Of a stretch of DNA of 56,544 bases, positions 16,648 through 40,926 are shown piece by piece. Under the pieces are notes generated by a model that did not search any database, was not told the origin of the DNA, and was given only the letters and a program-made list of their open reading frames with translations. A program made the translations under genes and the position numbers. The DNA comes from Caulobacteraceae bacterium (lineage in GTDB: Bacteria; Pseudomonadota; Alphaproteobacteria; Caulobacterales; Caulobacteraceae), in NCBI GenBank assembly GCA_003165275.1, contig PLSW01000328.1, positions 1 through 56,544 on the forward strand, read 5' to 3'. Each line of letters starts with the position of its first letter. The first letter of the stretch is position 1.

Positions 16648-17379
16648 ATGGCTGACTTCGTATCGCGCCGCAGGCTTGGCCGGGTTCTCTTGGCGGCGTC
16701 GCTGTGGATGGGGGCCTCTGCGGGGACCCCGGCTTGGGCGGCGACGGGCCTGGAAGGCGTGTGGCGGATGGCCCAGCCGAGCCAGAGCTTGCAGCCGGTG
16801 AACGGGCCGATCCCGTTCACGGACGAGGGGCGCAAGCAGTACGAGCAGAACAAGCAGCTGCAGTCAAAACACCAGTTTGATGACTACGACATCACGCTTT
16901 CGCGCTGTTCCACCCCCGGCACGCCGCGCCTCATGTTGACGCCCGGCCGCTTCAGGATCTGGCAGCGCTTTGGCGTTTACACCTTCGATTTCGAGTGGAA
17001 CCGGGCGCTACGCCAGATCAATGCGAGCACGCTCCCGACCCGGCCCGACCCCATGGGACAGAAACTTGTCCCGAAAATGACTGGGGAATCCAAGGGCCAT
17101 TGGGAAGGCGACACCCTAGTTGCTGTGACCAGCAATCTCTCCGAGCGTACGCTGCTCGATGATCTAGTCCCCCACACCGGCGACCTGAAGGTGACTGAGC
17201 ATATCCGGCTGCTCGATCACGATACGCTTGAAGACCGTATCACCATCGAAGACCGCGCCTATTTCACGCGGCCCTGGGATGCGGTGATCACCTACAAGCG
17301 TCAACCCGACGTGCTGTTCGCAGAAGATGTCTGCTTGGACCGGCACGACGCTAAACAGCCGGCCTTTTCGAAGCCGTAA
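16648..17379 (+). CDS. Secreted family A protein (A1), HWxG[DNR]TL motif
   Basis: A 243-aa exported protein; the signal peptide ends GTPAWAA. Features shared by all A proteins here are an N-terminal L(E)GVW strand, RCSTPGTPRLML, GVYTFDFEWNR, GHWEGDTLVAVT, TRPWDAVITYKR, and a second Cys in EDVCLD near the C-terminus. Two conserved Cys in an exported protein suggest a disulfide. No function is known to me. I start at 16648, which has AAGGGA upstream; a GTG at 16633 would add five residues. It is followed 32 bp later by B1. It is a close paralogue (about three quarters identical) of A4 at 38024-38755, in inverted orientation. Confidence 0.85.
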   Translation: MADFVSRRRLGRVLLAASLWMGASAGTPAWAATGLEGVWRMAQPSQSLQPVNGPIPFTDEGRKQYEQNKQLQSKHQFDDYDITLSRCSTPGTPRLMLTPGRFRIWQRFGVYTFDFEWNRALRQINASTLPTRPDPMGQKLVPKMTGESKGHWEGDTLVAVTSNLSERTLLDDLVPHTGDLKVTEHIRLLDHDTLEDRITIEDRAYFTRPWDAVITYKRQPDVLFAEDVCLDRHDAKQPAFSKP

Positions 17380-17411
17380 CCAAAGCTTTCTTCATATTCG
17401 GGGTACATGCC

Positions 17412-18404
17412 ATGAGCGTACAACGCGCTTTCGAGCGAAGATTCAAAGCGGTTGCAATGGCGGGCGCCGCTGCCATGTGCATCGCGGCCACCGCTGCCGC
17501 GGCGGCGGACGCCCCCCCCCCGGCGCCCGGTTCCGGCTCACAGCCTGCGGGCCCTCCCGTTCCGCGCGGCCCGACCACAACTAGCGGCAAGGCGGGCCCA
17601 TCTGGGCCTCCGCTGATATTTCCTGACCCAGAGCCAAGCCCCGCCGAGAAAATGGTCGCGGCGCTGCCGCCGCCTTGGCAAGGGAGCATGCCGCCCCTGT
17701 CGCCGCTGCCGGCCAATTCGCCGATGCCGACGTCCGATCCGCATGACCTGCAAGGAACTTGGGTTCACGCCCAGCACCTCGAATTTCGCATACGGCAAGA
17801 CATGTACCGCAACCCGCCGCCCTACAATATGGTCGGCGCCAAACTATTGGCCGACCGTGTGATTTCGCAGAGCCAAGGCAAGCCCTTCACCAACGCCTCC
17901 GCCAAATGCCGCCCGCCCGGCCAGCAATGGCAGCTTGACCTGCACTTCCCGTTCCAAATCTTCCAGTCGAAGAAATGGATCGTTTTTGTGTTCGAAGAAT
18001 TTCACAATCGCTGGCAGATCCTGCTCGACCCGTCCGCCGATCCTGAGCCGGGCCAGAAGCGCTATATGGGCCGCTCGATCGGTCACTGGGTGGGCGACAC
18101 GCTCATCGTGGAGACCACCGATTTCCGCGATCCGCTCTGGCTTGATGTCGACGGCACGCCATTGTCGGCCGCCGGCAAACTGATCCATCGCATTCGCAAG
18201 GTCGATAACGGCGATCGCAACCCCTATATCGAGATCATCACGACCGTCGACGATCCAACCTATTATGAAAGACCGTGGTCTGTCGTTCGCAGCTTCGCTT
18301 GGCAACCGGAGTTGACCAATTTCTCCGAGTACAATTGCGAGGAGCAGGTGGGCGATCCGAGCGCGAGTCCCGACGCCGGCCTTATAACCGAACCGAAGAA
18401 CTAA
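17412..18404 (+). CDS. Secreted family B protein (B1)
   Basis: A 330-aa exported protein with a signal peptide (AAAAADA) and a Pro-rich linker, then the B-family core: DLQGTWVH, NASAKCRPPG, FPFQIFQSKKWIVFVFEEFH, YMGRSIGHWVGDTLIVET, ERPWSVVRSFAWQPE and SEYNCEEQVGDP. A and B share the order W-strand, Cys-PG, HWxGDTL, RPW, C-terminal Cys, so they are related families. B1 forms a pair with A1. Its closest relative here is B4 (37023-37994), which forms a pair with A4 on the other strand. Function unknown; periplasmic or outer-surface location inferred from the signal peptide. Confidence 0.85.
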   Translation: MSVQRAFERRFKAVAMAGAAAMCIAATAAAAADAPPPAPGSGSQPAGPPVPRGPTTTSGKAGPSGPPLIFPDPEPSPAEKMVAALPPPWQGSMPPLSPLPANSPMPTSDPHDLQGTWVHAQHLEFRIRQDMYRNPPPYNMVGAKLLADRVISQSQGKPFTNASAKCRPPGQQWQLDLHFPFQIFQSKKWIVFVFEEFHNRWQILLDPSADPEPGQKRYMGRSIGHWVGDTLIVETTDFRDPLWLDVDGTPLSAAGKLIHRIRKVDNGDRNPYIEIITTVDDPTYYERPWSVVRSFAWQPELTNFSEYNCEEQVGDPSASPDAGLITEPKN

Positions 18405-18436
18405 CCGGGTGATTGCTCTGGAAATTTAATTCCGGC

Positions 18437-18512
18437 TCCGCGCCATTGAATTGGCGCGGACTCGCGAAAGGATGTTTGGTCAGGTTGGCGGCTACGCCTG
18501 CGTAGCCTCCGC
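18437..18512. terminator. Pair of hairpins between convergent genes
   Basis: Two stems lie in the gap between the convergent B1 and SnoaL-like genes: TCCGCGCCA/TGGCGCGGA (18437-18460) and GGCTACGC/GCGTAGCC (18490-18507). Neither has a clear U-tract, so bidirectional termination is probable rather than certain. Confidence 0.4.
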
Positions 18513-18538
18513 CCAGAGACCATTATCAGCGTGGACGA

Positions 18539-19830: not shown

Positions 19831-19883
19831 ATTCGTTTCCAATCGATCTTGAGTCAGTGACGGAGGAAGCGGCCTAAACCAGA

Positions 19884-22136
19884 TCAGTAGCGGGCGGACA
19901 GAACCACGCCATAGGTCCGCGGATCGGAAGGCGTGGATAGCAGGGTGTCTGACGAACCAAACTGTCCTGACTCGATGAACGCCGTGGTCTTGTAAATATT
20001 GTTACCCACATTGCGGACATAGCCGGTGACCGAGAACCGCCGACTGGCGGACTGCCAGGTCGCGCTGAGATCGCCGACCCATTCCCCACCGACCTGGACG
20101 TACGGCGCGTATGACTCGCCATTCACGTGCAGAGCGGAGGTCGAAATGTTGTCCAAAGTCAGGTTAGACAGAGCATGGGCCGACATGTAGCGGGTGTCGC
20201 CATGCAGCGTCAGGGTCGAGTCAGCCGGCAGCCGGAAGATGTGGTCATAGCCAAAATCAGCGGTGAAGGGGGTGACGTTGGGGATCTGGTTGCTCGTGAA
20301 GTAGTTGCTGAAGGGAACGAGCGAGGCGCCCCCCGTATCCACCAGTCGGTTCCTGTTGGTGAACCGGGCGTTGGTGTAGGCGAGGTTGGCCGAAGCGCGA
20401 TCGTCCGGCGTGAACTGGAAGATCGTCTCGAGCTCTCCGCCAAACGTCTGCGCTGGCGCCGCCAAGGTCGTGAACGTCAATGCAGCATTGGGCGGCGCAA
20501 TATTGACGTCGGCGTCTTGGTACCCGCCGTAGCTGTTGAAGTATAACGTGCCGTTGACCTGCAGGCGCCGGTCCAGGAAGCGGTTCTTGGAGCCGATTTC
20601 ATAGGCTGTGAGCGTCTCGGCGTTCAGCTTGAGCGGAATGGGATTGCCGGTCGAGCCCGTGGTGACGCTGATGTCTCCGGGCGTAAATCCGGTCGAAATC
20701 GACGCATAGACCAGGTTTTGCGGCGTAAGATCGTGCTCCAACCGCACCTTGTAGGTGAAGTTGTCGAAAGCCCGCGTGCCGGCTTTCCCATTCAACGGCG
20801 CCCCCGCGACGCCCAGAGCCGAGTAGTCCTCGTTGACGGAAACCTTGGTGTGGTCGTACCGCACGCCGCTGTTCAGCCGCCACGTATCGGAGAGGGGGTA
20901 GGTGCCCTCGGCGAACGTGCCGATCGCTTCGGTGGTCTTATCATGCACCAGGGCGTCGACAGGGTTCGCGTTCAGAGCAACCGAATGCACTATAAGATGG
21001 GACGCCAGGCTGTTCTTGTAATAGAGCACGCCCGTCTGCCAAACCAGCTTTGAGCCGGGGTCCGACGCCAGACGCAGTTCCTGGGTGTTGAAGCTGTCCC
21101 TCGGGACCAGGATGGTCGTGTCGACCTCGCCGATCGCGGTGTTCGAAAAAGTCTTGGCGTTCGATTGCCATGTGCGATAGGCCGGCTCATAGGTCAGTTT
21201 TGCAAAACCCAGGTCCCAGTTAAAGACGCCCCAGTATTGCCTGAAATTATTGGCGCCGGTTCCGAGCCCAGTCGGCAAGTAGATAAATTTATTCGGGTTC
21301 TTGCCCGCCAGATCCACATCGGGCGTGATGCCGCCGTTGCCGGTGTTATTGTTCTGCAGAGCAACGCCGACGAGGAGCGAAATATCCTTGGTGGGCTGAT
21401 ACAGCAGCTTAACCTTGCCGTCGTCGGAAGTGCCAGACCCGTCGCCCTTGGCCGACAAATAGCCATCACGCACATAACGGTTGCCCGAAATGCGGATCGC
21501 CAAGGTGTCGTTGATGAGCGGCGCGTTCACGGCGCCCGTGTAATGCTGCAGGCCATAGTTGCCGAACTCGACGGCTGCGTTGCCGCCTAGGTGGGTCAAG
21601 CTGGGATCGGCGGTGTGGATGGCGACGAGACCCGAGGTCGCGCTGCGCCCATAGAGCGTGCCTTGCGGGCCGCGCAGAACTTCGACCCGGTCGATGTCAT
21701 AGCCACCGCCCACGCCTTCATACACGCCATCGACATAGACGGCGGCCGCGGCGGACACGGAGGTGACGTTGCCGACCGCCCCGAGGTTGGAGGGGATCCC
21801 GCGGATGGTCAGACCGGGAGCGGATGTATCGGTGCCGCTGCCGCCCGGCGTGGGCGAATTCGCCCCCGCGCCGGTGATGCCGGGAACATCCTCAAGGATC
21901 TGCCCGAGCGTGAATCTGCCCTGATCCTGCAGTTCCGCGCCGGTCCGCACGCTGACCGAGGTGGCGGTCTTCTGCACGTTGCTCGTGCGGTGCTCCGCGG
22001 TAATCACGACCTCTTGCAGCACGGTGGTTCCGGCCTGCGGCTGGCTGGGCGCAGTCTGCGCGTGGGCCTGGCCTGCAGGCAGCTGCGTGGCCGCTAGACA
22101 AGCGACGGCGCACATCTTTATCTCTGGAAACTTCAT
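19884..22136 (-). CDS. TonB-dependent outer-membrane receptor
   Basis: A 750-aa receptor. The signal peptide ends QAHAQ. The plug domain begins VLQEVVITAEHRTSNVQKTA, the pattern common in sphingomonad and caulobacter receptors, and includes VEVLRGPQGTLYGRSATSG. The barrel ends RTYGVVLSARY with a terminal aromatic residue. GAGGGGGG lies just upstream of the ATG. It imports an unknown substrate, plausibly the aromatic or its precursor used by this island. The 218 bp upstream (22137-22354) should hold its promoter; I saw only a fragmentary resemblance to the shared 40-bp element there. Confidence 0.95.
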   Translation of the reverse strand: MKFPEIKMCAVACLAATQLPAGQAHAQTAPSQPQAGTTVLQEVVITAEHRTSNVQKTATSVSVRTGAELQDQGRFTLGQILEDVPGITGAGANSPTPGGSGTDTSAPGLTIRGIPSNLGAVGNVTSVSAAAAVYVDGVYEGVGGGYDIDRVEVLRGPQGTLYGRSATSGLVAIHTADPSLTHLGGNAAVEFGNYGLQHYTGAVNAPLINDTLAIRISGNRYVRDGYLSAKGDGSGTSDDGKVKLLYQPTKDISLLVGVALQNNNTGNGGITPDVDLAGKNPNKFIYLPTGLGTGANNFRQYWGVFNWDLGFAKLTYEPAYRTWQSNAKTFSNTAIGEVDTTILVPRDSFNTQELRLASDPGSKLVWQTGVLYYKNSLASHLIVHSVALNANPVDALVHDKTTEAIGTFAEGTYPLSDTWRLNSGVRYDHTKVSVNEDYSALGVAGAPLNGKAGTRAFDNFTYKVRLEHDLTPQNLVYASISTGFTPGDISVTTGSTGNPIPLKLNAETLTAYEIGSKNRFLDRRLQVNGTLYFNSYGGYQDADVNIAPPNAALTFTTLAAPAQTFGGELETIFQFTPDDRASANLAYTNARFTNRNRLVDTGGASLVPFSNYFTSNQIPNVTPFTADFGYDHIFRLPADSTLTLHGDTRYMSAHALSNLTLDNISTSALHVNGESYAPYVQVGGEWVGDLSATWQSASRRFSVTGYVRNVGNNIYKTTAFIESGQFGSSDTLLSTPSDPRTYGVVLSARY

Positions 22137-22354: not shown

Positions 22355-23233
22355 CTAATTCGTAGTCAAACCCTCCATCGCCCCCGTCGGATTTTCTTCG
22401 CACTGAAACTCCAATACCTGCAGCTCAGGATGCCAGGTCGATACGCTCGTTCGTGAGACAGGTTCCAGGTAGGTCTGCGGGTCGTCAACAGTCACCGTCA
22501 GCTCTAACTTTTGTCCGCCATCTAATTTTCGCAGCCTGCTCACCGCATGAGTAGTTGCGGTCGTATCTTGTGCTTCGCCGTTATACCCAACGGTATCTAC
22601 AACAAGTGTATCACCTTCCCAGTGACCGACCGAGTCGCCCCAATAGCTAGGCTTGGGATGCGCGGGATGCCCCCGGTCCATATGGATGACCCACCGCGTG
22701 CGCCCTTCTTCCTGGAGCAGGACGATTTCCTTGGGGCCCTCAATGACCTCCAGCGGGAATGTGTCGCCGCCCAGGCCGATGTCATTCATCGGTCGGCATC
22801 GCGCCGCATCCGAGGCCAACGGCGTTCCCTTGCGATTCATTTCCTGGGCATAGTCGCGATGCGCCAACGCCTTCTTCGTCAGCTTCGACGGATCAACCCC
22901 CTGGGGTCCGGGAAACGGATCTCGGGCGGCCAGATTGGCGAGAGAACCAAGGGATAGCTGCTGGAGCGACGCCGCCAACCAGACCCCTTCGATATCGCGC
23001 GGATCCGCCCGTGGCGGGGCCGCGCCGGCGGGCGGCGGCGGCAACGGCGCAAAAAGCGTGGGAGCGCTTACGAACCCTTGCGGTCCTTGGTCAACCGGAG
23101 GCGCCTGCGCTGATAGGGGAGCTGGCTTGCCGTCCGGCGGGTTGGGCGGCGACTGCGCCATTGCCGCTGTCCCGCACAGCAGCACCGCGCTGAACACATA
23201 AGATTCCAAATGCTTGAGCTTCATGGGCTTCAC
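22355..23233 (-). CDS. Secreted family B protein (B2), divergent
   Basis: A 292-aa exported protein (signal ends AAMAQ) with a Pro-rich linker. It keeps GVW, ARCRPM, YWGDSVGHWEGDTLVVDTVGY and the C-terminal LEFQCEEN, but the FPFxIFQ and RPW segments have changed (FPLEVIE, LEPVSRTSVSTW). It is thus the most divergent B protein here. It overlaps the A2 stop by 4 bp (ATGA), making it the last gene of the D1-A2-B2 module. Function unknown. Confidence 0.82.
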   Translation of the reverse strand: MKPMKLKHLESYVFSAVLLCGTAAMAQSPPNPPDGKPAPLSAQAPPVDQGPQGFVSAPTLFAPLPPPPAGAAPPRADPRDIEGVWLAASLQQLSLGSLANLAARDPFPGPQGVDPSKLTKKALAHRDYAQEMNRKGTPLASDAARCRPMNDIGLGGDTFPLEVIEGPKEIVLLQEEGRTRWVIHMDRGHPAHPKPSYWGDSVGHWEGDTLVVDTVGYNGEAQDTTATTHAVSRLRKLDGGQKLELTVTVDDPQTYLEPVSRTSVSTWHPELQVLEFQCEENPTGAMEGLTTN

Positions 23234-23955
23234 TCGCCAAGCTTTCGCGACCAGTCGACCGCCGGCTTGCCGGCGTCGATGCGATCAAGGCAAATATCGA
23301 GCGGTATCTCGTGACTGTCGGGCAGACGGTTGAACGTTAGCACCGTCTCCCAAGGGCGGGTGAACGTCTGCGGATCCTCAATTCTGATCCGGTCCTCCAG
23401 TCGCCGACCCCCGTTTGTCAGCCTTATATGCTCGGTCAAGGAGAGCGCCTCGCTATGCGGCAGACCCGCTGAATCCAGCATGGTATTGTCCGCGCGAAGC
23501 CCGTTGGTATGGATCACCAGCGTGTCGCCATCCCAATGTCCGGACGACTCGCCAAGCGACAATGGATACGGCGCCTCTTGCTTCTGGCCGCTCATATCCA
23601 CATGCCGATTCCAATAGTTCCACTGAAAAATGTAGGTAATACGCTTTGGCCGCTGAATGATCTCAAACGGATAGGGAAGATATAAAATCCGCGGCATCCC
23701 CGGTGAAACACACTTGGCCGTCGGGTCATAGGACAGGTCGTGAACCTTCCATTTCGCCATGCGCTCGCCGTAGAGCTTACGCGCCTCGTTGTTCAGAGGC
23801 GGCGCTTGGCCGTCCACGGTCTTGAGTTCGCGAACCTTGGCCGCTGCCTCCCACACGCCGCTGATGTCCGGTGCCGCCTGCGCACCGGACGCCAGCATTA
23901 GGGCCGCCCCAATCACCGCCACGCTCATCGCCCTGGAGTTCATGCTGTTGCTCAT
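23230..23955 (-). CDS. Secreted family A protein (A2)
   Basis: A 241-aa exported protein (signal ends ASGAQA). It has ISGVWEAA, AKCVSPGMPRILYLPYPF, ITYIFQWNYWNR, SGHWDGDTLVIHT, TRPWETVLTFNR and DICLDR. Both conserved Cys are present. It is coupled by ATGA overlaps to D1 upstream and B2 downstream, showing that D, A and B are made together. Confidence 0.84.
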   Translation of the reverse strand: MSNSMNSRAMSVAVIGAALMLASGAQAAPDISGVWEAAAKVRELKTVDGQAPPLNNEARKLYGERMAKWKVHDLSYDPTAKCVSPGMPRILYLPYPFEIIQRPKRITYIFQWNYWNRHVDMSGQKQEAPYPLSLGESSGHWDGDTLVIHTNGLRADNTMLDSAGLPHSEALSLTEHIRLTNGGRRLEDRIRIEDPQTFTRPWETVLTFNRLPDSHEIPLDICLDRIDAGKPAVDWSRKLGE

Positions 23956-24380
23956 TGCGGCGGCGGGGGGCCGCCCGCAATATCGTTTCCGGGTCCGTAC
24001 AATGTACGTCCATCCGGCAGAGTGACCGTCATCAGCGTCCCGCCCTCGCCGCCCGCCTGGCTGTTGACGTTGCGCATCGGGTGAATTTTAGCGGTGACCT
24101 TATCGCCAGGTTTGAGGTCGGTTTGTTTCCAGCCGTGACGCACATTGATGTTAGGGGTGCCGCACTCGATGGACCATTCCACGCTCTTGCCCGCCGCGTC
24201 TCGCACCACCAGATGGATGAACATGTGCGGGTTGGTCCATTGGAACTCCTTTACAGTCCCCTCCAACACGGCCGATCGACTGTAATCGTACGCCGCGGTC
24301 GAGTGATGCGCCCAGACCGGCGTCGCTATCGCTACTAAGGCGCCGATAGCCCATGCTTGCTTTTTGCTGATTTTCTTCAT
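23952..24380 (-). CDS. DUF6152 secreted protein (D1) with HHS mature N-terminus
   Basis: A 142-aa exported protein. The signal peptide ends PVWA, so cleavage leaves His-His-Ser as the mature N-terminus. The DUF6152 pattern follows: HHSTAAYD, GTVKEFQWTNPH, GDKV, LPDGRTL, with a Pro-rich tail. GAGGAG lies upstream of ATG 24380; the frame continues to 24593 but that part is not coding-like. A free N-terminal His followed by a second His inside a PH motif could bind copper, as in histidine-brace proteins; that is an inference. It overlaps A2 by ATGA. Confidence 0.86.
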   Translation of the reverse strand: MKKISKKQAWAIGALVAIATPVWAHHSTAAYDYSRSAVLEGTVKEFQWTNPHMFIHLVVRDAAGKSVEWSIECGTPNINVRHGWKQTDLKPGDKVTAKIHPMRNVNSQAGGEGGTLMTVTLPDGRTLYGPGNDIAGGPPPPQ

Positions 24381-24597
24381 GGGCTCCTCAAGCCGAAAGT
24401 ATATTTGCCGTGTCCAGCCGAGCGTTTGGCGTGCACGGCGCTCCATTCCTTCAAATATTCCACTATCGAATCGCATGACCCTGATCCTCGAACCCTTCTC
24501 GTGAGCGATCACGCCGGTGATGCCGGACGCGCGCGATCGCCTCCTCAAGATCGCTTGGCTCCTCCGCGAGAAGTCGCCGCACGCCGCCGCCATCCGC

Positions 24598-25323
24598 TCA
24601 ACGAGGAAGCGGCAGACCCGTCTTTATTCGATCCAGGCAAATATCCTCTTTGAACGGAAACAGATCATCGGAAGCGCGCGTATAGACCAGCACCGCCGTC
24701 CAAGGCCGCGTAAACATCTGTGGATCTGTGATCTTAATTCGATCTTCCAGTGTATTTTTGCCGCGTAGACGCAATGTCTCTGTAAGAGCCAGGTCCTCAC
24801 TACTCGGGATCAGATTGTCGAGCAGCTTCTGCGGCAGGAAGTTGGTGGACTCCACAACCAGTGTGTCACCGTTCCAATGACCAGCACCTGCGCCCATTAT
24901 TGTCGGCGTGTCCGAATCCTGTCCGACGGATGACTGCAGATCAATCTGCCGCATGAGATGGTTCCACTGGAACAAAATAGAAACCATTCGTGTGTCTTGA
25001 AAAACTTTCATGGCCGTGGGCGTTAGCATCACCCGCGGCAGCCCTGGCGAAGAGCACCGGGTTTCGGTCAAATCGAAGCTGAAGTCGCCCGAGGCGGCCG
25101 CCTTGCGGTTCTCCTCATAGAGACGCCGCCCCTCCGCGGTGAACGGGATGGCTTGGCCATCCGCAGGTTTCAAAGCCACTTGTGGCGAGGCCAGTCGCCA
25201 CACGCCCGCGAGGTCGGCGGCGGCGGCGGAGCCGCTCGCGAACATCGCGCCGGCCAACATGATCGCCGCCCATGCGTGAACCAGGCCGCGGCCGGTAGGG
25301 ATCAATGACTTGATGGCGATCAT
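24598..25323 (-). CDS. Secreted family A protein (A3)
   Basis: A 241-aa exported protein (signal ends SGSAAA). It has LAGVWRLA, TRCSSPGLPRVMLTP, VSILFQWNHLMRQIDL, AGHWNGDTLVVES, TRPWTAVLVYTR and EDICLDR. It lies 14 bp after B3, so it should be the third gene of the D2-B3-A3 unit. A 217-bp gap follows before D1; I see no gene in that gap, and a secondary promoter there is possible. Confidence 0.84.
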   Translation of the reverse strand: MIAIKSLIPTGRGLVHAWAAIMLAGAMFASGSAAAADLAGVWRLASPQVALKPADGQAIPFTAEGRRLYEENRKAAASGDFSFDLTETRCSSPGLPRVMLTPTAMKVFQDTRMVSILFQWNHLMRQIDLQSSVGQDSDTPTIMGAGAGHWNGDTLVVESTNFLPQKLLDNLIPSSEDLALTETLRLRGKNTLEDRIKITDPQMFTRPWTAVLVYTRASDDLFPFKEDICLDRIKTGLPLPR

Positions 25324-25337: not shown

Positions 25338-26288
25338 CTATTGATCGTCGAGCGGTTCAGGCACCGCGCCGTAACGGCTGATTCCGTCTGGGGCGGTGGC
25401 CTGGCGCTCGCAATTGAATTCGGCGAATTCCGCACGATCGGGCCGCCAAGCAAAGGTTCGCGTGAACGACCAAGGCTTCGAGTAGAGAGTCTTGTCGTCG
25501 ACAATGGTTGTGATTTCGAGGTGGGGGCCGCCTTCGTCGGTCCTTTTGATCCGTTGGATCAAATGACCTTTGGCGGACATAGGCGTTCCCTGCGGGTCGA
25601 TCCAAATCCCCGCCTTATAGTTGACCGTATCGACGACGAGCGTATTCCCGTCCCAATGGGCGATGGAATCGCCCATGTATTGCGCGGGTTGATCAGGTTT
25701 ATGGCGGTCGCTCATCTGGATGTTCCAGATGGTGTGGTATTCTTCGAACGCGAAGACTAGGTACTTATCCGTTTGAAAGACCCGAAACGGAAAGTTTAGT
25801 TCGAGCTCCCATGGCTGGCCCGGCGGCAAGCATTGCAGCGACGCATTGACATAGGGTGTGCGGCTGTAGCCGGCCTTAAGGCGCCGATCGGCGATGCGAC
25901 GGCCGTCTTTGGTGAACGGGACGAGTTGCTGCTCGTCATCGAAATTGATCCGCATCACCCCCACTTGGTCGTGAAGCCACACGCCTTGAAAGTCACGCGG
26001 ATCCGCCGACGGCTTCGGCGCCTCGGGCGGTAGAGGCGTCAACTGCTGCTTCAAGAAGGCTTCGATAGGCGGACCTGCCGTGATGTTGCCGGTCTTGGGG
26101 TCATGGTATTCGACGGCCTGATCCGGCGTACCCAGATTGTCCGGCTTGTCGCCCGCCGGCGTTCCTTGGGCTGGCCCCTTCGCCGCCCCGGCCCCAGGTC
26201 CCGGTTGCGCGAACGCTGCACAATTGGCCGACCACACGACGACGGTTGCGAGCATAAGCGCACGCCAATGGACACTGCTTTTTCGCAT
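25338..26288 (-). CDS. Secreted family B protein (B3)
   Basis: A 316-aa exported protein. I start at ATG 26288, giving MRKSSVHWRALMLATVVVWS as signal peptide (ends AAFAQ); the frame extends to 26360 inside the upstream gene. A Pro/Gly-rich linker precedes FQGVWLHD, NASLQCLPPGQPW, LNFPFRVFQ, LVFAFEEYHTIWNIQ, YMGDSIAHWDGNTLVVDT, SKPWSFTRTFAWRPD and AEFNCERQ. The motif here is AHWDGNTL, a conservative variant. It lies 10 bp after D2. Confidence 0.84.
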   Translation of the reverse strand: MRKSSVHWRALMLATVVVWSANCAAFAQPGPGAGAAKGPAQGTPAGDKPDNLGTPDQAVEYHDPKTGNITAGPPIEAFLKQQLTPLPPEAPKPSADPRDFQGVWLHDQVGVMRINFDDEQQLVPFTKDGRRIADRRLKAGYSRTPYVNASLQCLPPGQPWELELNFPFRVFQTDKYLVFAFEEYHTIWNIQMSDRHKPDQPAQYMGDSIAHWDGNTLVVDTVNYKAGIWIDPQGTPMSAKGHLIQRIKRTDEGGPHLEITTIVDDKTLYSKPWSFTRTFAWRPDRAEFAEFNCERQATAPDGISRYGAVPEPLDDQ

Positions 26289-26298: not shown

Positions 26299-26760
26299 CT
26301 ATTTGGCCTTAGCCGGATCGGCCTTGGGCGAATTATTAGCGCCGAAATCCTCGAAACCATGCCCGCGCAGCACCCTGTTATCGGGCAATTTCAGCAAGGC
26401 CAATTCGCCGCCAGGCGCGCCATTGATATTGGGGTACCACTTCAATTCGACCTTCATTCCGGCTTTGAAGTCGGAAATCTTGAAGCCCTGCCGAACGATC
26501 GTGTTTGGAGCCCCCGTCGTGGCCGAAACGGTCTGAGCACCACCAGATTTATCGACATAAACAACTGTCACCGATGAATGCGGAGCACTCCAGTCAAAGT
26601 CCTTCAGGGTGCCCTCGACAGAGTTGACGTGGTTCTGATCGTAAGCGGCGTAAGAATGGTGTGCCAGAGCGTGCTCGGCAAAAACCATGCTGCAAATAGA
26701 TATAGCAGCTGTCGCGTAAAGAACGCGGGCTGGACGGCCAATTGGCGGCAATGCCTTCAT
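26299..26760 (-). CDS. DUF6152 secreted protein (D2) with HHS mature N-terminus
   Basis: A 153-aa exported protein. The signal ends EHALA and the mature chain begins HHSYAAYD, followed by GTLKDFDWSAPH and LPDNRVL as in other DUF6152 proteins. It is the first gene of the leftward operon D2-B3-A3-(gap)-D1-A2-B2. A TTG at 26784 in frame, preceded by AGGTGG, is an alternative start that lengthens the signal region. Copy A of the shared 40-bp element lies 229 bp upstream of the ATG. Confidence 0.85.
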   Translation of the reverse strand: MKALPPIGRPARVLYATAAISICSMVFAEHALAHHSYAAYDQNHVNSVEGTLKDFDWSAPHSSVTVVYVDKSGGAQTVSATTGAPNTIVRQGFKISDFKAGMKVELKWYPNINGAPGGELALLKLPDNRVLRGHGFEDFGANNSPKADPAKAK

Positions 26761-29068: not shown

Positions 29069-29078
29069 ACTCGACGCA

Positions 29079-31518: not shown

Positions 31519-31521
31519 GAC

Positions 31522-32823
31522 CTAACCCTCCGCGGGCAGGACGATGCCGCGGCATTGGCCGAAGCCGATGCTCGTCCGTCCCTCGGCTTCGGCCCGGGCG
31601 GCGAAGATCACCTCGTCGCCGTCCTCGAGAAAACACCGGGTCTCGCCGGTGGGCAGAGTCACAGGCTCGGTCCCGCCTCGGCTGATCTCCAGCAGGCTGC
31701 CCAAGGCGCTCCGGTCATCCCCCGAGATCGTGCCTGTGCCCAGCAGATCTGCCGGATTGAGGTTGCAGCCGCCCGAAGCGTGGTGGGCCACCATCTGGGC
31801 CACAGTCCAGTACATGTTCTGCGCCGTTCCCCGGCTGAGCCGGAATGGAGCCGCGCCGGCCTTTCGCATAGCCTCCGTGCTCAAAGCCGCCTCCAGAACG
31901 ATCGAAAAGGCGCCGCCGGCCTGATCCGCCGCGTCCCAAAGATAAGGCAAGGGTTGCGGATCACCCTCGGGCCGCGGCCGCTGGGCCACGCGATAGGGCG
32001 CCAGGGCCTCGATGGTCACGATCCAGGGCGTGATGGTGGTTTGGAAGTTCTTCGACAAGAACGGGCCGAGAGGCTGGTATTCCCAGGCCTGCACGTCCCG
32101 CGCCGACCAGTCGTTGAGCAGGCATAGGCCGGCCACGGACCGATGGGCCTCGCCGATCGGGATCGACCGGCCGAGCGCGTTGCCCGCCCCGATCCAGACG
32201 CCGAGCTCAAGCTCGTAATCCAGCCGCCGGCAGGGGCCGAACTGCGGCGCGGTGGCGTCGGGCGCCTTGGTCTGCCCCTTGGGGCGGACCACCGGAGCGC
32301 CCGATACGCGGATGGAGGACGCCCGTCCGTGATAGCCGATCGGCACATACTTGTAGTTGGGCAACAGCGGGTTATCGGGCCTGAACAGGCGGCCGATGTT
32401 CTCGGCGTGGCGAATGCCGACATAAAAATCCGTATAGTCGCCGATGGCCGCCGGCAGGCGCATCTCGCACATCGCTGCCTCATGCAGAAGCGGCTCGGCC
32501 TGCGCCCTGCCCTCCTCCCGGCTGAGGAGCAGCGACAGGGTGCGTCGTAACTCGATCCGACGCTGCGCGGGCTGGCCAAGGAGGCTGTTGAGCAGGGGTT
32601 CGCGGGCAATCATCGCCGCCCATTCGGGCAGCAGACCGGCCTCGGCCGCCGCCTTCAGGTCCAGGATCATGTCGCCGATGGCGACGCCAATGCGCGGTGC
32701 GCCGCCGGACGGCGAGAACACCCCCAGGGGCAGGTTCTGGATGGGGAAGTCGGCATGGCCCTGCGCCGTCTCCACCCAGCTTGTCAGGCGCGGATCGTGG
32801 CTCTCGTCGAGGACCATATTCAT
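31522..32823 (-). CDS. fahA: Fumarylacetoacetase
   Basis: A 433-aa enzyme of normal length. [20 protein letters not shown] contains the metal Asp and catalytic His, YHGRASSI follows, [12 protein letters not shown] provides metal Glu residues, and [20 protein letters not shown] with FLSKNF supplies Asp and Lys of the active site. It hydrolyses fumarylacetoacetate to fumarate and acetoacetate. It overlaps the hmgA stop by 4 bp (ATGA). Confidence 0.96.
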
Positions 32824-34157
32824 CGCGGCAACTCGGCCTTGGGGAAGCCCTGCCAGACCGCGTCGTAGTCCGACTGGGCCAGCGGCGTCTGCACTGCCCA
32901 GAGGGTGGGCCGGATCACCCAGCGGCTTTCGAACATAAAGGCCATGGTGTCCTTGATCCGATGCGGCTTCAACTCCGCCGCCACCGCGTTGCGGTAGGCC
33001 GCTGCATCGGGCCCGTGCCCGCTCATCGGGTTGTGCAGAGAAGCTCCGCCGGGAGCGAAACCGTCGCCTTCCTTGGCGTCATATACGCCGTGGATCAAGC
33101 CCATGAACTCGCTCATGACGTTACGGTGGAACCAGGGCGGACGGAAGGTGTCCTCAGCCACCATCCAGCGCGGCGGAAAAATCACAAAGTCGCAATTGGC
33201 CACGCCGGGCTGCTCGGAGGGCGAGGTCAGGACCGTGAAGATCGACGGGTCCGGGTGGTCATAGCTGACGGTGTTGATCACGTTGAAGCGCCTCAGGTCA
33301 TAGGCGTAAGGCGCGAGGTTGCCGTGCCAGGCGACCACGTCCAGCGGCGAGTGATCGAGGGAGGTGGTCCAAAGACGCCCCTGGAACTTCTGCACCAACT
33401 CGGTGGACACGGCGCGGTCCTCGAACCAGGCCTGGGGAATCACGAAGTCGCGCGGATTCGCCAGGCCATTGGCGCCGATCGGCCCGAGCTCTGGCAGACG
33501 GAAGGGCGCGCCGTAGTTCTCGCACACATAGCCGCGGGCGAAGGCGCCCGACAGCCGAACGGCGAAGCGTACGCCGCGCGGGATCACCGCGATTTGCAGC
33601 GGCTCGATGGCGAGCACGCCCAGTTCGGTGCGGATCACCAGCCCGCCTTGCTGGGGCACGATCAGCATTTCGCCGTCGGCCGAGAAGAACACCCGATCCT
33701 TCATCGAGCGCGTGGCGGCATAGGCATGAATTCCGATTCCGGCCTGGGCGGCGACATCACCGTTGCCGCCGTAGCTGATCAGGCCGTCCACGAAGTCGAC
33801 GGGCTCGGCCGGTGCCGGAAGCGGGTCCCAGCGCAGGCGATTGGGCGTGGGCGGAACCTCGTCAAAGGGGCCCGATCGCAGCAGCGGCGCATTCGCATAG
33901 GGTTGGAACGGGCGGTGGGCGGCGCTGGGCTGCAGCCGGTAGAGCCAGGAGCGGCGATTGTCCGCGCGGGGCGCCGTGAAGGCCGTTCCGGACAGCTGCT
34001 CGGCATAAAGGCCGAAAGGGGTCTTCTGCGGCGAGTTGCGACCGATGGGCAGGGAGCCGGCAACCGCCTCGCTCTCGAAATAGCCGCCGAAGCCGGTATG
34101 GGGCGGCCGCACCGCGGTTTGATCGCCCCCCAGGTTCAATCTTTCGAGCACAGTCAT
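32820..34157 (-). CDS. hmgA: Homogentisate 1,2-dioxygenase
   Basis: A 445-aa dioxygenase. [18 protein letters not shown] carries the iron-ligand His and Glu, and [11 protein letters not shown] the second ligand His. The start [11 protein letters not shown] at ATG 34157 has GGGAGG upstream; the open frame upstream to 34610 lies across the operator and marR and is not coding. It opens the ring of homogentisate to maleylacetoacetate. It heads the hmgA-fahA-maiA operon, and the palindrome at 34201-34247 overlaps its presumed promoter. Confidence 0.96.
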
Positions 34158-34200
34158 ATCGCCCTCCCGATCAGCCGAGCCGCCAGGCCACCACATTGTA

Positions 34201-34247
34201 GTTTCATTTGTTACTAGATCGCCCCGAAATCTAGTGTCAAATGAAAC
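34201..34247. promoter_or_regulatory. Palindromic operator between hmgA and marR
   Basis: Left arm GTTTCATTTGTTACTAGAT (34201-34219) and right arm ATCTAGTGTCAAATGAAAC (34229-34247) pair at 17 of 19 positions across a 9-bp spacer. On the minus strand, TTGACA lies within one arm, so the site overlaps the likely hmgA promoter. MarR proteins usually bind palindromes in such divergent regions. Binding by the adjacent MarR is inferred. Confidence 0.7.
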
Positions 34248-34322
34248 CTGTCTCTCCGCTCTGGACGAGGTTGGGCGGCCATGCCTCATTGTTCCGTCGG
34301 AGCGGAAAAGACGTGAGGCCCC

Positions 34323-34775
34323 ATGACAAAACCGCGCACGCTGCGGCTGGACGGTTTCCTGCCCTATCGGTTGTCGATCGCCACCAACATGGTGAGCGAC
34401 ATCATCGCCCGCGCCTATCGGACTATGTTTGGCCTGAACATTCCCGAATGGCGGCTGCTCGCGGTCCTGGCGGAAAGCGAGGGAATCACCCAGTTGGAAC
34501 TGAGCCTCGCGACACGCATGGACAAGGTCACCGTTAGCCGGGCCGCGGCCGGCCTGGTCGAGCGCAAACTTGCCCTTCGCACGCCCAATGCGGCGGACAA
34601 GCGCTCGCATCTCTTGTCATTGACCGAGCAGGGCCGTGACCTGTACCGCCAGGTCGCGCCCAAGGCGTTGGCTCTGGAGGATGCCGTTCTGGTCGACTTC
34701 GACAAGGCTGAGGTCGCCCAGTTGATGGCCATGCTGGAGCGCTTGGAAGAGGCCGCGCAGAGGTTGGGGCCTTGA
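34323..34775 (+). CDS. MarR-family regulator of the homogentisate operon
   Basis: A 150-aa winged-helix protein: [20 protein letters not shown], then recognition helix [20 protein letters not shown] and wing [20 protein letters not shown]. It is divergent from hmgA with a long palindrome between them. MarR regulators of homogentisate genes typically repress and release on binding the ring intermediate; here that is inferred from position. Confidence 0.88.
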
Positions 34776-36513: not shown

Positions 36514-36969
36514 TTATTCGTAAGGCACGGGCGCGGCGGGACCAGGCCCCCCCGGAAGGCCGCCAGGCGGCGGACCGCCGCCTGCCAGCACGCGCCCATT
36601 TGGCAGCTGAACTTGCTCCATGAGTCCGAGATGCTGGCCGGTCCGCTCCGGCTCGGCAGTGACTATGACCTTGTCGCCAATCTGAATGTCGGCCGCGTTC
36701 CAGCCCGCTCGGATCAGCATGCTCGTGCCGCCGCTCTCGAAACCCCAGACTTCCTCTGGGCGATCCTTCCTACTGATGCGAAGATAAAGCCAGGAGTGAG
36801 GGTTGGCCCACACCCACTTTTGTACTGTGCCCGTGAAAATAATACGTTTCGTGCCATCGAACATCGACGCGGAATGATGCGCTTGCGCCGACAAGCCCGT
36901 CATCGCAAGCAGCATCGCGGCCGCCACCGCCATCCGCCAGTTTCCGTCCGGTTTGCGTATTTCGCTCAT
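36514..36969 (-). CDS. DUF6152 secreted protein (D3) with HHS mature N-terminus
   Basis: A 151-aa exported protein. The signal ends SAQA, leaving HHSASMFD as mature start, then GTVQKWVWANPHSW, GDKV and LPNGRVL, with a long Gly/Pro-rich C-terminal tail (about 20 residues). It is the last gene of the A5-B5-D4-A4-B4-D3 operon, 53 bp after B4. Confidence 0.85.
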   Translation of the reverse strand: MSEIRKPDGNWRMAVAAAMLLAMTGLSAQAHHSASMFDGTKRIIFTGTVQKWVWANPHSWLYLRISRKDRPEEVWGFESGGTSMLIRAGWNAADIQIGDKVIVTAEPERTGQHLGLMEQVQLPNGRVLAGGGPPPGGLPGGPGPAAPVPYE

Positions 36970-37022: not shown

Positions 37023-37994
37023 TTACTCCGGATCGCGGATTAGGCCGGCTTCGGAGCGCGTGTTCGGGTCTCCCACCTGTTCTTCGCAATTGTATTCTAG
37101 GAAATTTGTCAGTTCTGGCTGCCACCCAAAGGTGCGCACGACTGACCAGGGCCTGACGTAGTAGGTTGAATCGAAGAAGGTTGTGATGATTTCGAGATAC
37201 GGGTTGTAATCGCCGTTATCGATCTTCTGAATACGCTGAACGATTTTGCCATTGGCCGACAAGGGTGTGCCATCGAGGTCGAGCCAGATAGCCTGACGGA
37301 AGTCCTTTGTCTCCACGACGAGCGTGTCGCCCTTCCAATGACCGATCGAGCGGCCCATATAGCGCTTCTCGTTCAGATGAGGCGCAGCGGAAGGATCAAA
37401 CAGGATTTGCCAGCGACCGTGATATTCCTCGAACAGGAACTCAAACCACCCTTTTGACTGGAAGATCTGAAACGGAAAGTTGGTGTCGATCTGCCATTGA
37501 GGGCCCGCTGGGCGGCAGGTAGCGGAGGCGTTGGTGTAGGGCTTGCCCTTGGCGGTCGAATTCACACGCCGGGCCAAGACTTGGGCGCCGGCCATATTGT
37601 AGGGCACCGGCTTGCCGTACATGTCTTGCTGGATGCGAAACTCGATGGGCTGGTTATGGACCCAAGTCCCCCGAAGATCCCGCGGATTGGACGAAGGCAT
37701 TGGCGCATCGGCCGGCAGCGGCGTTATCGGCGGCATGCTTCCTGGCCAAGGCGGCGGCAGCGCTGCGACCAGTTTCTCGGCGGGGCTCGGCTCGGGCTTG
37801 GGAAATAGCACAGGCCCCCCAGTGCCGAACCCGGTGGGACCTTGCCCGGCTGAAGGCGCGCCGCTTGCAGGCGGGGGAGGCCGCGGCGCTTGGGCGCTAG
37901 CCTCGCCGGCGGTGGCCACTGCCAAGCAGATGGCTGCGGCTGCCGACATTACAACGGCTTTGGATCTTCGCTCTAAAGCGCGCTGGACGCGCAT
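37023..37994 (-). CDS. Secreted family B protein (B4)
   Basis: A 323-aa exported protein (signal ends ASAQ) with a Pro-rich linker and the core DLRGTWVHNQ, NASATCRPAG, FPFQIFQSKGWFEFLFEEYH, YMGRSIGHWKGDTLVVETKD, VRPWSVVRTFGWQPE and LEYNCEEQVGDP. It is the closest relative of B1 (17412-18404), sharing whole blocks such as PEPSPAEK and VAALPPPW. It lies 29 bp after A4. Confidence 0.85.
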   Translation of the reverse strand: MRVQRALERRSKAVVMSAAAAICLAVATAGEASAQAPRPPPPASGAPSAGQGPTGFGTGGPVLFPKPEPSPAEKLVAALPPPWPGSMPPITPLPADAPMPSSNPRDLRGTWVHNQPIEFRIQQDMYGKPVPYNMAGAQVLARRVNSTAKGKPYTNASATCRPAGPQWQIDTNFPFQIFQSKGWFEFLFEEYHGRWQILFDPSAAPHLNEKRYMGRSIGHWKGDTLVVETKDFRQAIWLDLDGTPLSANGKIVQRIQKIDNGDYNPYLEIITTFFDSTYYVRPWSVVRTFGWQPELTNFLEYNCEEQVGDPNTRSEAGLIRDPE

Positions 37995-38023
37995 GGCATG
38001 TACCTCGGATTGAAGAATCTTGG

Positions 38024-38755
38024 CTAGGACTTGGGAAAGGCCGGCTGGTGAGCATCGTGCCGGTCCATGCAGACATCTTCCGCGAACACAACGTCAGGCT
38101 GACGCTTGTAAGTGATCACTGCATCCCAAGGCCGGGTGAAATAGGCGGGATCTTCGATGGTGATACGGTCTTGTAGCGTGGCGTGATCGAGCAGCCGGAT
38201 ATGTTCGGTCACTTTCATATCGCCGGTGTGGGGGACTAGATCATCAAGCAGCGTGCGCTCGGAGAGGTTGTCGGTAACCGCGACCAACGTATCGCCGATC
38301 CAATGCCCCTTTGAGGTTCCTGTCACAGTTGGAACATATTTCTGCCCCATCGGATCGGGCCTTTCGGGCAGCTTGCTCGCATCGATCTGGCGCAGCGCCC
38401 GGTTCCACTCGAAATCGAAGGTGTAAACGCCGAATTGCTCGCGCAACTTGAAGCGCTCAGGCGTCAGCATCAGGCGCGGCACGCCAGGGTTGGAACAGCG
38501 CGACAGCGTGATGTCGTAGCCATCAAAGTCTTGCTTGGCTTGCATCTGCTTGTTCCGCTCGTAGCGCTTGCGCCCCTCATCCGTGAAGGGGATGGGCCCA
38601 TGCACCGGCGTCAAGCTCTGCGTCGGCCGAGCGATCTTCCACACACCTTGAAGGTCAGGCGCTGCCCAGGCCGGGGTCCCCGCAGAGGCCCCCATCCACA
38701 GAAACAGCCCTAAGACGGCCCCGCCAAGTCCTTTGCGCAAATCTAGGTCGGTCAC
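38024..38755 (-). CDS. Secreted family A protein (A4), near-duplicate of A1
   Basis: A 243-aa exported protein, exactly the length of A1. Signal peptide and core follow A1 closely: WMGASAGTPAWAA, LQGVWKIA, LSRCSNPGVPRLMLTP, GVYTFDFEWNRALRQI, KGHWIGDTLVAVT, LSERTLLDDLVPHTGD, TRPWDAVITYKRQPDV, and EDVCMDRHDA. I prefer GTG 38755 (GAGGGGG upstream, same length as A1). An ATG at 38770 that overlaps the D4 stop by 4 bp is an alternative. Confidence 0.84.
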   Translation of the reverse strand: MTDLDLRKGLGGAVLGLFLWMGASAGTPAWAAPDLQGVWKIARPTQSLTPVHGPIPFTDEGRKRYERNKQMQAKQDFDGYDITLSRCSNPGVPRLMLTPERFKLREQFGVYTFDFEWNRALRQIDASKLPERPDPMGQKYVPTVTGTSKGHWIGDTLVAVTDNLSERTLLDDLVPHTGDMKVTEHIRLLDHATLQDRITIEDPAYFTRPWDAVITYKRQPDVVFAEDVCMDRHDAHQPAFPKS

Positions 38756-38766
38756 TTCGATCCCCC

Positions 38767-39198
38767 TCATTTGCCGGCCGCAGGAGCGCCGCCCGCAGCC
38801 GGGGCTCCTTCAGTATCTGAGAAGACGCGGCCATCGGGCAATGTGAGCGTCATGAGCGCTCCGCCTGGGGCCCTGTTGACGTTAGGGTGATAGGTGATCG
38901 ATATCTTGTCGCCGATATGAAAATCGCGCGGCTTGAAGCCTCGATTCACGAACATGAGCGGGCTGCCGCTGGCGATCTCCATGTCCGCAGGCTTGCCGTC
39001 CTTGTCGATATAGGCAAGCACCAGCGAGGAATGCGGCGCACCCCAGCGAAACTCCTTGATCGTGCCCGAAGCGCTCCCGACCTTGGTCACGTCGTAAGCG
39101 GCGAGGGAGTGATGCGCCAAGACGGGCGTGGCGAAAAGCGTCGCGGCCCAAACGAGCGTCGCCCCTCCGCCGATCAGCCTGACTTTTCTGTCTCTCAT
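38767..39198 (-). CDS. DUF6152 secreted protein (D4) with HHS mature N-terminus
   Basis: A 143-aa exported protein. The signal ends TPVLA and the mature chain begins HHSLAAYD, then GTIKEFRWGAPH, GDKI and LPDGRVF, with an Ala/Gly/Pro tail. GGAGG lies 5 bp before ATG 39198; an ATG at 39216 is less likely. It follows B5 by 35 bp and leads into A4. Confidence 0.86.
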   Translation of the reverse strand: MRDRKVRLIGGGATLVWAATLFATPVLAHHSLAAYDVTKVGSASGTIKEFRWGAPHSSLVLAYIDKDGKPADMEIASGSPLMFVNRGFKPRDFHIGDKISITYHPNVNRAPGGALMTLTLPDGRVFSDTEGAPAAGGAPAAGK

Positions 39199-39233
39199 CA
39201 CTGCCTCCGCAAGCAATTTAATAGGCCCTGAAC

Positions 39234-40097
39234 CTAGTCGTTGGGTTCAGGAATGACACCGGCGTCTGCGTTCACGCTGGGGTCGCCAACCTGTAGTTCG
39301 CAGTCATATTCATGCATCAGCGTCATGTCCGGCCGCCACGCATAGGCCTTCATCCAAGACCAGGGACGCGTGTAGTACCTCGGATCGTCGACCGTGTTTT
39401 GCACCTCCAGGTACCAATGGTCGCTCTTCACCTTTCGGATGCGCATCGTAAGCTTGCCGTCCTTGGAGATCGGCGTGCCCAGAGGTTCGATCCAAAGCCC
39501 CTCCTTCAACCCGGAGATTTGGACCACCAGGGTGTTGCCCTCCCAGTGGCCGACCGAACGGCCCATATATCCCGGCGGCCCGGCCCGCGCCGGGTCCATC
39601 ATGATCTCCCACAGGCCGTGGTATTCCTCGAACACGAAGTCCAGTCGGTCCTTGGCCTGGAAGATCAGAAACGGAAAGGTCAGCTCGAGCTGCCCCGGCG
39701 CTCCGGGAGGGAGGCAGTGTGTCGAGGCGTTGATGTAGGGCGGCCCTTTGGTGAAGCCTATGAAGCGGCGTTCCGCCACCTTTTTGCCGATCGCCGTGAA
39801 CGGGATCGGATCGCCGAACATGTCGCTCTTCATCTGCGACAGCAGGACACCGCCGGTGTCATGGAACCAAGCGCCGTTGAAGTCGCGCGGGTTGGCCGAG
39901 GGCTGCGGCGCACCAGCGGCGAGCGGCGGCGGCATGGGCGGCTTGTTCGAGACGTCCGGATTATCCTCGTTGCCAACCGGCGCGCCATCTGGCGGCGGTC
40001 CGCCAGGCGGAGGTCCACCTGGTCTTTGCGCGAAAGCGGCCGAGCCACAGACGGTCAGAGCCGCGGCAAAAAGTACGCATCCTATTCGCAGATTCAT
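39234..40097 (-). CDS. Secreted family B protein (B5)
   Basis: A 287-aa exported protein (signal ends AAFAQ) with a PGGPPPGGPPP linker. The core has FNGAWFHD, NASTHCLPPG, FPFLIFQAKDRLDFVFEEYH, YMGRSVGHWEGNTLVVQI, TRPWSWMKAYAWRPD and HEYDCELQVGDP. The motif is HWEGNTL. I start at ATG 40097 rather than a TTG at 40112. It lies 25 bp after A5. Confidence 0.84.
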   Translation of the reverse strand: MNLRIGCVLFAAALTVCGSAAFAQRPGGPPPGGPPPDGAPVGNEDNPDVSNKPPMPPPLAAGAPQPSANPRDFNGAWFHDTGGVLLSQMKSDMFGDPIPFTAIGKKVAERRFIGFTKGPPYINASTHCLPPGAPGQLELTFPFLIFQAKDRLDFVFEEYHGLWEIMMDPARAGPPGYMGRSVGHWEGNTLVVQISGLKEGLWIEPLGTPISKDGKLTMRIRKVKSDHWYLEVQNTVDDPRYYTRPWSWMKAYAWRPDMTLMHEYDCELQVGDPSVNADAGVIPEPND

Positions 40098-40122
40098 CGC
40101 TCTTTTTTTCAAGTTGGATGAC

Positions 40123-40926
40123 CTACGGTTGCTTGGCTTCGAGCTTGGCGAGAGGCGTCGGCGGCGGCTGCGCGGCCGTGCGCGAGGCGAAAAGCGCGAG
40201 AAGGCAGACGTTCTCGGGAAATTCAGTGTCCTTTTGGCGCCTGTACGTCACCACCGTTCGCCACGGTCGCGTGAAATATTCGGGGTCCGCGACCGTGATG
40301 CTGTCTTCCAAAACATCTGGGCTTCGAAGGCGAATGCGCTCAATCGTCTTCATGCCGTAGCCATGCGGCAAAAGATTGTCGACGAGCGTCTTGTCGTTGA
40401 AGCCGTCCGTCGTGAGCACCAAGGTGCGACCCTCCCAATGCCCGTGGGCGATCGGCGCGGCTCTGCCGACCAGAGCATCGTTATTTTCGCCTTCGTCCGG
40501 CAGGCCCTGAGCGACCCTGAGCTGCGGCTGCATCAAACCGCCCATGTCGATCTCGCGAAACAGCCTGTTCCATTCGAATTGGAACAGGACATAGCCAGGC
40601 CGCTGCCAGATACGGAAACGGTCCGGCGTCAGCATCAGGCGTGGTAGCCCCGGCGATGCGCAACTGGACGTGGCAGTGTCGTAGGCGAAATCGCCCTTAG
40701 TCAGGCCAAGCTTGTTCTGTTCGTAACGGGTGCGCCCCGCGGGCGTAAATGGGATGGGCCCGTCCGCGGGCTTGAAGGAAACCTGCGGCGCACTGATCTT
40801 CCACGTGCCTTGAAGGCCGATGGGATCAGCCGCCTCGACTGGCGACGGCAGAGCGCCGCCCCCAAAGACAAGGGCGAGCCCCGTCGCGGCCACACGCCCG
40901 AGCCTTACGCCACTTGCAATCCTCAA
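40123..40926 (-). CDS. Secreted family A protein (A5)
   Basis: A 267-aa exported protein that starts at TTG 40926, five bases after GGGGAGG (40931-40937). It has a signal peptide (ends SPVEAA), LQGTWKIS, SSCASPGLPRLMLTPDRF, YVLFQFEWNRLFREI, GHWEGRTLVLTT, TRPWRTVVTYRR and ENVCLLALFAS. The motif reads HWEGRTL, with Arg at the usual Asp. The C-terminus is longer than other A proteins by about 25 residues. It heads the six-gene operon A5-B5-D4-A4-B4-D3. Confidence 0.83.
   Translation of the reverse strand: MRIASGVRLGRVAATGLALVFGGGALPSPVEAADPIGLQGTWKISAPQVSFKPADGPIPFTPAGRTRYEQNKLGLTKGDFAYDTATSSCASPGLPRLMLTPDRFRIWQRPGYVLFQFEWNRLFREIDMGGLMQPQLRVAQGLPDEGENNDALVGRAAPIAHGHWEGRTLVLTTDGFNDKTLVDNLLPHGYGMKTIERIRLRSPDVLEDSITVADPEYFTRPWRTVVTYRRQKDTEFPENVCLLALFASRTAAQPPPTPLAKLEAKQP

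Follow-up and report, generated by a model that had tools for sequence, protein, structure and literature searches.

The 56,544-nucleotide contig PLSW01000328.1 of a Caulobacteraceae bacterium (assembly GCA_003165275.1; hereafter the window) carries repeated clusters of genes for exported proteins of two related families, A and B, interleaved with genes of the Pfam family DUF6152 (PF19649; hereafter D). We found that D and A/B belong together, elsewhere also with the membrane family DUF6644 (PF20349; hereafter M), and we are close to certain that the three form one functional unit and that this unit is real. It is a widespread envelope system whose function is unproven. Five A, five B and four D genes were confirmed as open reading frames (ORFs) in the window, all at the places and in the orders given by an earlier reading of the DNA (the original prediction). 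That reading had proposed that A, B and D work together and that the three families should co-occur genome-wide. Both proposals were borne out: D was found in every sampled A/B genome (22/22 and 12/12), the genes are tightly linked, and D-A/B fusions occur in three genomes. The DUF6644 partner and the His-His mature N terminus of D had gone unnoticed there.

A contig search with the five A proteins gave 79 A/B loci, 18 close and 61 distant, with several loci per genome, chiefly in Novosphingobium sp. Rr 2-17. The loci span Novosphingobium, Sphingomonas, Steroidobacter, Phenylobacterium, Acidobacteria and Gemmatimonadota. A D gene was located within 3 kb of A/B in 61 of the 79 loci (12/18 close, 49/61 distant); in 58 loci, from Acidobacteria to Gammaproteobacteria, it was no more than 200 bp away and on the same strand. 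A tandem A/B pair was present in 43. Smaller profiles had given earlier counts of 62/79 for D near A/B and 39/79 for the tandem pair. The A/B profile combined all ten A/B proteins of the window with 88 of the 136 distinct locus matches; the D alignment (71 rows) combined the four D proteins of the window with 67 of the 68 found at the loci, a fragment in L080 being left out. Since the D-A-B arrangement recurs in other phyla, it is not a product of chance.

Because these loci had been selected through A, whole genomes were sampled as well. Among 200 genomes of the window's order, 31 carried D and 22 carried A/B, and none of the 22 lacked D. Among 398 genomes of the phylum, D was present in 42 and A/B in 12, again with D in all 12. 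In the order sample, D was within 1.5 kb of A/B in 21 of the 22 A/B genomes, on the same strand in 19 and on opposite strands in two, as counted on a subset of A/B matches that covers all 22 genomes. The sole genome without an adjacent D was G037, whose A/B match has two stops. Nine order-sample genomes with D and without A/B carry low-scoring D proteins (33-51 bits), as do the A/B genomes G037 and G179. For A/B, scoring covered at most 15 (order) or about seven (phylum) candidates in each genome, so weak A/B may be missed. Co-occurrence was tested by the hypergeometric p-value, which overstates independence, as the two samples have genomes in common and their genomes are related to one another. 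Copy numbers diverge: G100 and G190 have at least 15 A/B each with three D, and G323 and G350 have 7 and 8 D. Because D also multiplies, copy number alone does not tell which part follows the substrate.

The commonest gene cluster beside the 79 loci was the membrane family DUF6644, found in 23 of them. By profile, M was present in 34 of the 79 loci, in at least two copies in 31 of those 34, and it was within the fetched DNA in 3/18 close loci. Presence is nested: all genomes with a DUF6644 match also had D, 25/25 in the order sample and 28/28 in the phylum sample. In genomes with D and without A/B, M directly adjoined D in 28 of 30 fetched loci (20/20, 8/9 and 0/1 by batch), the 20/20 being partly by choice since 17 of those 20 genomes were already known to carry DUF6644. 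From the phylum sample, 21 of the 30 D genomes without A/B were fetched, namely the batch of 20 and L157, which had no M. A distant relationship of M to DUF2214, a family mentioned once in each of two papers, is possible (E 4.6e-5, below the cut-off), and a profile search of solved structures with M found no relative (best E 1.2). A DUF6134 gene (L137:7224-7886) stands directly before one D-M pair, and a gene similar by reading precedes D in L144.

Fusions join the same three parts. In L149, D, A/B and M form a single frame of 570 amino acids (aa) that is followed by a second M gene; its M part scored 111 bits with the local M profile and 19 bits, below the cut-off, with the Pfam model. L150, from a second species of the same genus, has a 382-aa D-A/B fusion followed by two M genes. 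A 360-aa D-A/B fusion in L148, a genome of the window's order, probably arose independently of these two. Fusions, linkage and nested presence are together strong evidence that D, A/B and M are a working unit. They also bear on the idea of a module for envelope assembly or stress that has nothing to do with metals or substrates and moves with catabolic genes. In favour of this idea, D occurs in many contexts, and the window contains mobile-element genes (VirB4-like and a Tn3-like transposase). However, the linkage of D to A/B and their fusion are seen again in distant lineages, and therefore hitch-hiking cannot explain the unit. We regard this idea as very improbable.

In the window, one A/B pair lies on the plus strand, A1 (16648-17379) before B1 (17412-18404), which has a Pro-rich N-terminal extension. 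The other genes lie on the minus strand in two blocks, transcribed in the orders D2-B3-A3-D1-A2-B2 and A5-B5-D4-A4-B4-D3. The first comprises D2 (26299-26760), B3 (25338-26288), A3 (24598-25323), D1 (23952-24380), A2 (23230-23955) and B2 (22355-23233). The second comprises A5 (40123-40977), B5 (39234-40112), D4 (38767-39198), A4 (38024-38770), B4 (37023-37994) and D3 (36514-36969). The A and B genes were assigned from ORFs and alignment, together with a profile for B1, junctions for B2, A2, B3 and A4, and a structure model for A3, from which the fold of A1 is taken. Of the several ATGA overlaps that had been proposed, those at the D-A junctions (D1-A2 and D4-A4) were found as described, whereas the A-B overlap, at A2-B2, is GTGA. 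The more likely start of B3 is 26288, 10 bp past the D2 stop. D1, D2 and D4 are likely shorter than their open frames: their starts were chosen by reading, that of D1 inside a longer ORF (23952-24593), and each then has a mature N terminus beginning HHS. A1 and A4 are 78% identical and B1 and B4 68%; the remaining pairs share 39-49% identity among the A proteins and 35-47% among the B proteins. The A1-B1 and A4-B4 pairs seem to have arisen by joint duplication. Profile searches found A/B in the source genome on the window contig only. Two further DUF6152 genes of this genome are on contig C46 (L147:8687-9100 and L146:7880-8380), and no A/B or M was found near them; as read from the sequence, exported and transport-like genes follow the one in L147.

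All four window D proteins scored above the PF19649 gathering score of 27 bits (64-124 bits; D1 124, D2 69, D4 64), and no other family passed its cut-off. Directly before a His-His pair, each has Ala or Val, any residue, and Ala. The same pair was found right after the end of the signal peptide in 71 of 71 aligned D proteins (70 by pattern, one by eye), mostly behind A-x-A or V-x-A. Both histidines, and a Pro-His in the loop after strand 1, did not vary in any of the 111 rows that span this part of D, with Ala preceding in 104 (the alignment has 114 rows and leaves L135-L148 and L158-L182 outside). The His-His pattern was located in 96 of 105 D frames; the remaining nine are six with His-His on reading, two fragments and one wrong-frame start. 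A simple cleavage-site rule was satisfied at His-His in 96/96 located cases versus 616/2304 (27%) shifted positions, the place of His1 being judged from the sequence alone, by this rule and by reading. A histidine released by signal cleavage is a metal chelator according to the portions of PMC12537917 and PMC10952591 drawn on here, and in 2025 this principle was used to find four bacterial metalloprotein classes (PMC12537917). Because an N-terminal histidine freed in this way chelates metals whatever the fold behind it, D probably binds a metal, as judged from the sequence.

D is predicted to have an OB fold. The model of D3 (pLDDT 86.9), a member assigned by its Pfam match and N-terminal pattern, has the strand and helix order of an OB barrel, with five strands and a helix between strands 3 and 4. 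The matches listed for it among solved structures were mostly OB proteins, the best being PriB (VIA Z 8.7, rmsd 2.5, 81 residues aligned). A profile search of solved structures with D found no relative (best E 0.9). CusF, CcmE and nitrobindin were not among the VIA-align matches listed, which excludes nothing. A DNA-binding role, suggested by the SSB and PriB matches, was rejected, as D begins with a signal peptide and OB folds are common.

A and B form a single superfamily, since in the source genome the A profile recovers B and the B profile recovers A. Of the motifs that the original prediction gave to all ten A/B proteins, the H-W-x-G-x-T-L core and the C-terminal Cys are invariant in 10/10, as is the first Cys, but Cys-PG holds in only eight, with C-RPMN in B2 and C-RPAG in B4. 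For the six scanned proteins (A3, A4, B3 and B4 being outside the scan), no usable Pfam or NCBIfam match was obtained, a uORF model at E 0.017 being noise. The solved-structure profile search with A/B likewise found no relative (best E 0.97). The A3 model (pLDDT 88.6) found matches to fatty-acid- and retinol-binding proteins of the FABP/CRBP type, with a best Foldseek E of 2.5e-4 and, by VIA, Z 9.3 and rmsd 3.8 over 121 aligned residues. Its helices lie between strands 1 and 2, the same as in the FABP/CRBP fold. A is predicted from this model to be a calycin-like barrel, and B, through homology, would have the same fold. In the A/B alignment, Cys90 (98/98), Cys229 (94/94) and Asp200 (98/98) are conserved, as is a G-x-W (Gly in 47 and Trp in 48 of 49 rows); these residues fit an exported, disulphide-bonded barrel. 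The structure models of D and A agree with the expectation that these families would not turn out to be unrelated known enzymes: they give OB and calycin-like folds and no confident match to such an enzyme. On balance we favour a ligand-binding role for A/B.

We propose that the window genes are the soluble part of an envelope system of D and A/B, joined elsewhere by M, often as a tandem pair. Signal cleavage would expose His1-His2 on the OB domain of D, and the free amino terminus and the histidines would hold a transition-metal ion. Cu(II) is the metal most often reported at N-terminal-histidine sites. Candidates for a second histidine ligand are His2 and the Pro-His, both invariant, the latter in the loop that joins strands 1 and 2. 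A/B, probably disulphide-bonded calycin-like barrels, would bind a small hydrophobic ligand, and this would account for the multiplication of A/B beside TonB receptors and catabolic genes. A/B may present this ligand to D, whose metal would bind or oxidise it, and M, where present, may anchor D at the inner membrane and pass on metal or electrons. The window set, which is without M, may act in the periplasm alone, supplied by the TonB receptor. For the whole mechanism as stated, with its metal site, ligand barrels and anchor or relay, we consider the chances evenly balanced. A bolder form, in which D-A/B-M would be a periplasmic metal-dependent oxidase or peroxygenase of a new class, with a single-metal N-terminal-His site on the OB domain of D, interchangeable A/B delivering hydrophobic substrates and the M pair supplying electrons, seems doubtful.

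The N-terminal His-His of D also suits metal acquisition or delivery, in which D would capture periplasmic Cu(II) or Ni(II), A/B would carry a metal-binding small molecule and M would be a permease, as in CopC-CopD and Ang-HupE/UreJ. The small membrane protein M beside D in 28 of 30 fetched loci of A/B-less genomes is in line with such delivery, and a precedent is given in the portion of PMC12537917 drawn on here. Genes clustering with HupE/UreJ_2 are found near D-A/B in 4 of the 79 loci (L009, L039, L044 and L063, Pfam-checked in L063 only), and the L063 protein also appears to begin with a His once its signal peptide is removed. Against delivery, the lists of 25 frequent neighbour families for close loci, distant loci and D-M pairs contain no copper or nickel homeostasis family. 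The genomes with at least 15 A/B beside three D suit varied ligands better than one metal, which is a weak point since D itself reaches 7-8 copies. Metal delivery is possible in our estimation, but less probable than the mechanism proposed above.

Several observations weigh against the proposed system and its mechanism. No D was found within 3 kb in 18 of the 79 loci (6/18 close, 12/61 distant). The A/B profile and the local D and M models were built from A-centred loci, and only PF19649 and PF20349 are independent. DUF6644 was not found in the window's genome (assembly 91% complete); every other A/B genome of the two samples had an M match. D loci without M were also met in A/B-less genomes (L138 and L157), in L145 and at the two D loci of contig C46. 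The D3 model had a best Foldseek E of 1.3e-3, with none at 0.001 or better, and its Z of 8.7 is barely over the 7-8 typical of models without a clear match. The fold match of A is modest (about 12% identity, TM about 0.35 by query length). No copper-homeostasis family was among the 25 of 116 neighbour families listed for D-M pairs. Lastly, the D protein of L138 (L138:7962-8315), with no M found alongside, has Asp-Pro in place of His-His and retains Pro-His; it is a natural test of the metal hypothesis.

Besides the D and A/B genes, the window encodes a TonB-dependent receptor (19884-22136, minus strand), which is likely, though unproven, to be an associate of the system. It also encodes a homogentisate dioxygenase, a fumarylacetoacetase, a GST-type protein, an FAD hydroxylase-type protein, a LuxR-type regulator, a SnoaL-like protein and a thioesterase; the homogentisate-pathway genes are at 28998-34610, between two D-A-B blocks. 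Neighbours were tallied on ORFs passing length and codon-position filters (115/120 at close loci, 118/170 at distant loci and 116/128 for D-M pairs). At 20 close loci the TonB receptor Plug was the most frequent neighbour family (15/115 ORFs), and FAA hydrolase, SnoaL_2 and short-chain dehydrogenase had three members each (25 of 111 neighbour families listed). Distant-locus neighbours were led by DUF6644 (19/118 ORFs), PQQ dehydrogenases (8) and c-type cytochrome domains (7). These neighbours make substrate handling in the envelope plausible. The proposal of an envelope system with the TonB receptor and SnoaL-like proteins is supported for the receptor at the close loci. Action on an imported aromatic fares worse, given the few catabolic families at close loci and the DUF6644 and PQQ dehydrogenase genes at distant ones; the tie of the system to aromatics is suggestive only.

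The calycin-like fold of A and the TonB receptors in the window and near close loci would also suit a TonB-coupled uptake set, with A/B as periplasmic carriers of an imported compound, D as a structural or docking part, and its conserved histidines otherwise employed. However, D-M pairs were without any A/B in the fetched 10-12 kb at 20 of 20 loci, and docking alone hardly explains three invariant histidines. We consider such an uptake set unlikely, and prefer the metal-holding D with ligand-holding A/B.

Other features were observed near these genes. In L155, D-A/B has as neighbours more A/B and two PQQ dehydrogenases identified by Pfam, of which one carries a c-type cytochrome domain; L156 is similar by appearance. 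At window 42838-44121 (minus strand), one frame joins most of an FAA hydrolase (profile positions 1-187 of 214) to the final part of a cytochrome b561 (56-176 of 179); either a deletion fused the two naturally or the join arose in the assembly. Window 1-15500 has mobile surroundings: a VirB4-like gene with 72.5% identity to a Thauera plasmid gene so annotated, a probable VirB11-type ATPase at 9495-10493, as judged from the sequence, and a transposase-like frame at 11539-14529. This frame is 74% identical to an unannotated stretch of an Azospirillum plasmid, and a short match is annotated as Tn3 family.

Two function-less Pfam families and an unnamed third are here brought into one testable system, with the free His-His end as a chemical handle. 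If the proposal is true, an OB-fold class is added to the N-terminal-histidine metalloproteins, and many "hypothetical" exported proteins of aromatic degraders, Acidobacteria and Gemmatimonadota gain a role.

The D-A/B-M system was not found described earlier. The window D proteins are members of DUF6152 by score and the M proteins outside the window match DUF6644, both families being named only as of unknown function; no paper naming DUF6152, DUF6644, PF19649, PF20349 or IPR046587 was found in a literature search outside which most subscription journals lie. Like the fatty-acid- and retinol-binding proteins and the lipocalins (calycins), A has a predicted barrel, a helical insert after strand 1 and a G-x-W near the start. 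Unlike them, A/B are exported, with two invariant Cys, an invariant Asp and no sequence match in PDB or Pfam. CopC is a small exported protein with an N-terminal His that works beside the membrane protein CopD, and D with M is likewise arranged. The CopC fold differs from that predicted for D, and no CopC or CopD Pfam match was obtained for the four window D proteins (at E 1), one M (at E 0.01) or two M (at E 0.1). DUF6152 is not in the main text of PMC12537917, which treats the nearest comparison. As in DUF4198, DUF6702, Ang-1 and Ang-2, in the portion of PMC12537917 used, the signal peptide of D would be cut just before a conserved His1. Ang-1 and Ang-2 have a membrane permease domain of their own (PMC12537917), and the D system also has a membrane partner, but one of DUF6644 and not of HupE/UreJ_2. 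The anglerase-type HupE/UreJ_2 fusion is in none of the four window D proteins, and the sole membrane fusion seen carries a DUF6644-type part. A beta-sandwich or Ig-like fold is reported for DUF4198 and Ang-1 (PMC12537917), whereas D has a predicted OB fold. From the signal-strapping classes, as presented in that portion of PMC12537917, D differs further in joining His-His to a Pro-His and in its pairing with predicted calycin-like barrels.

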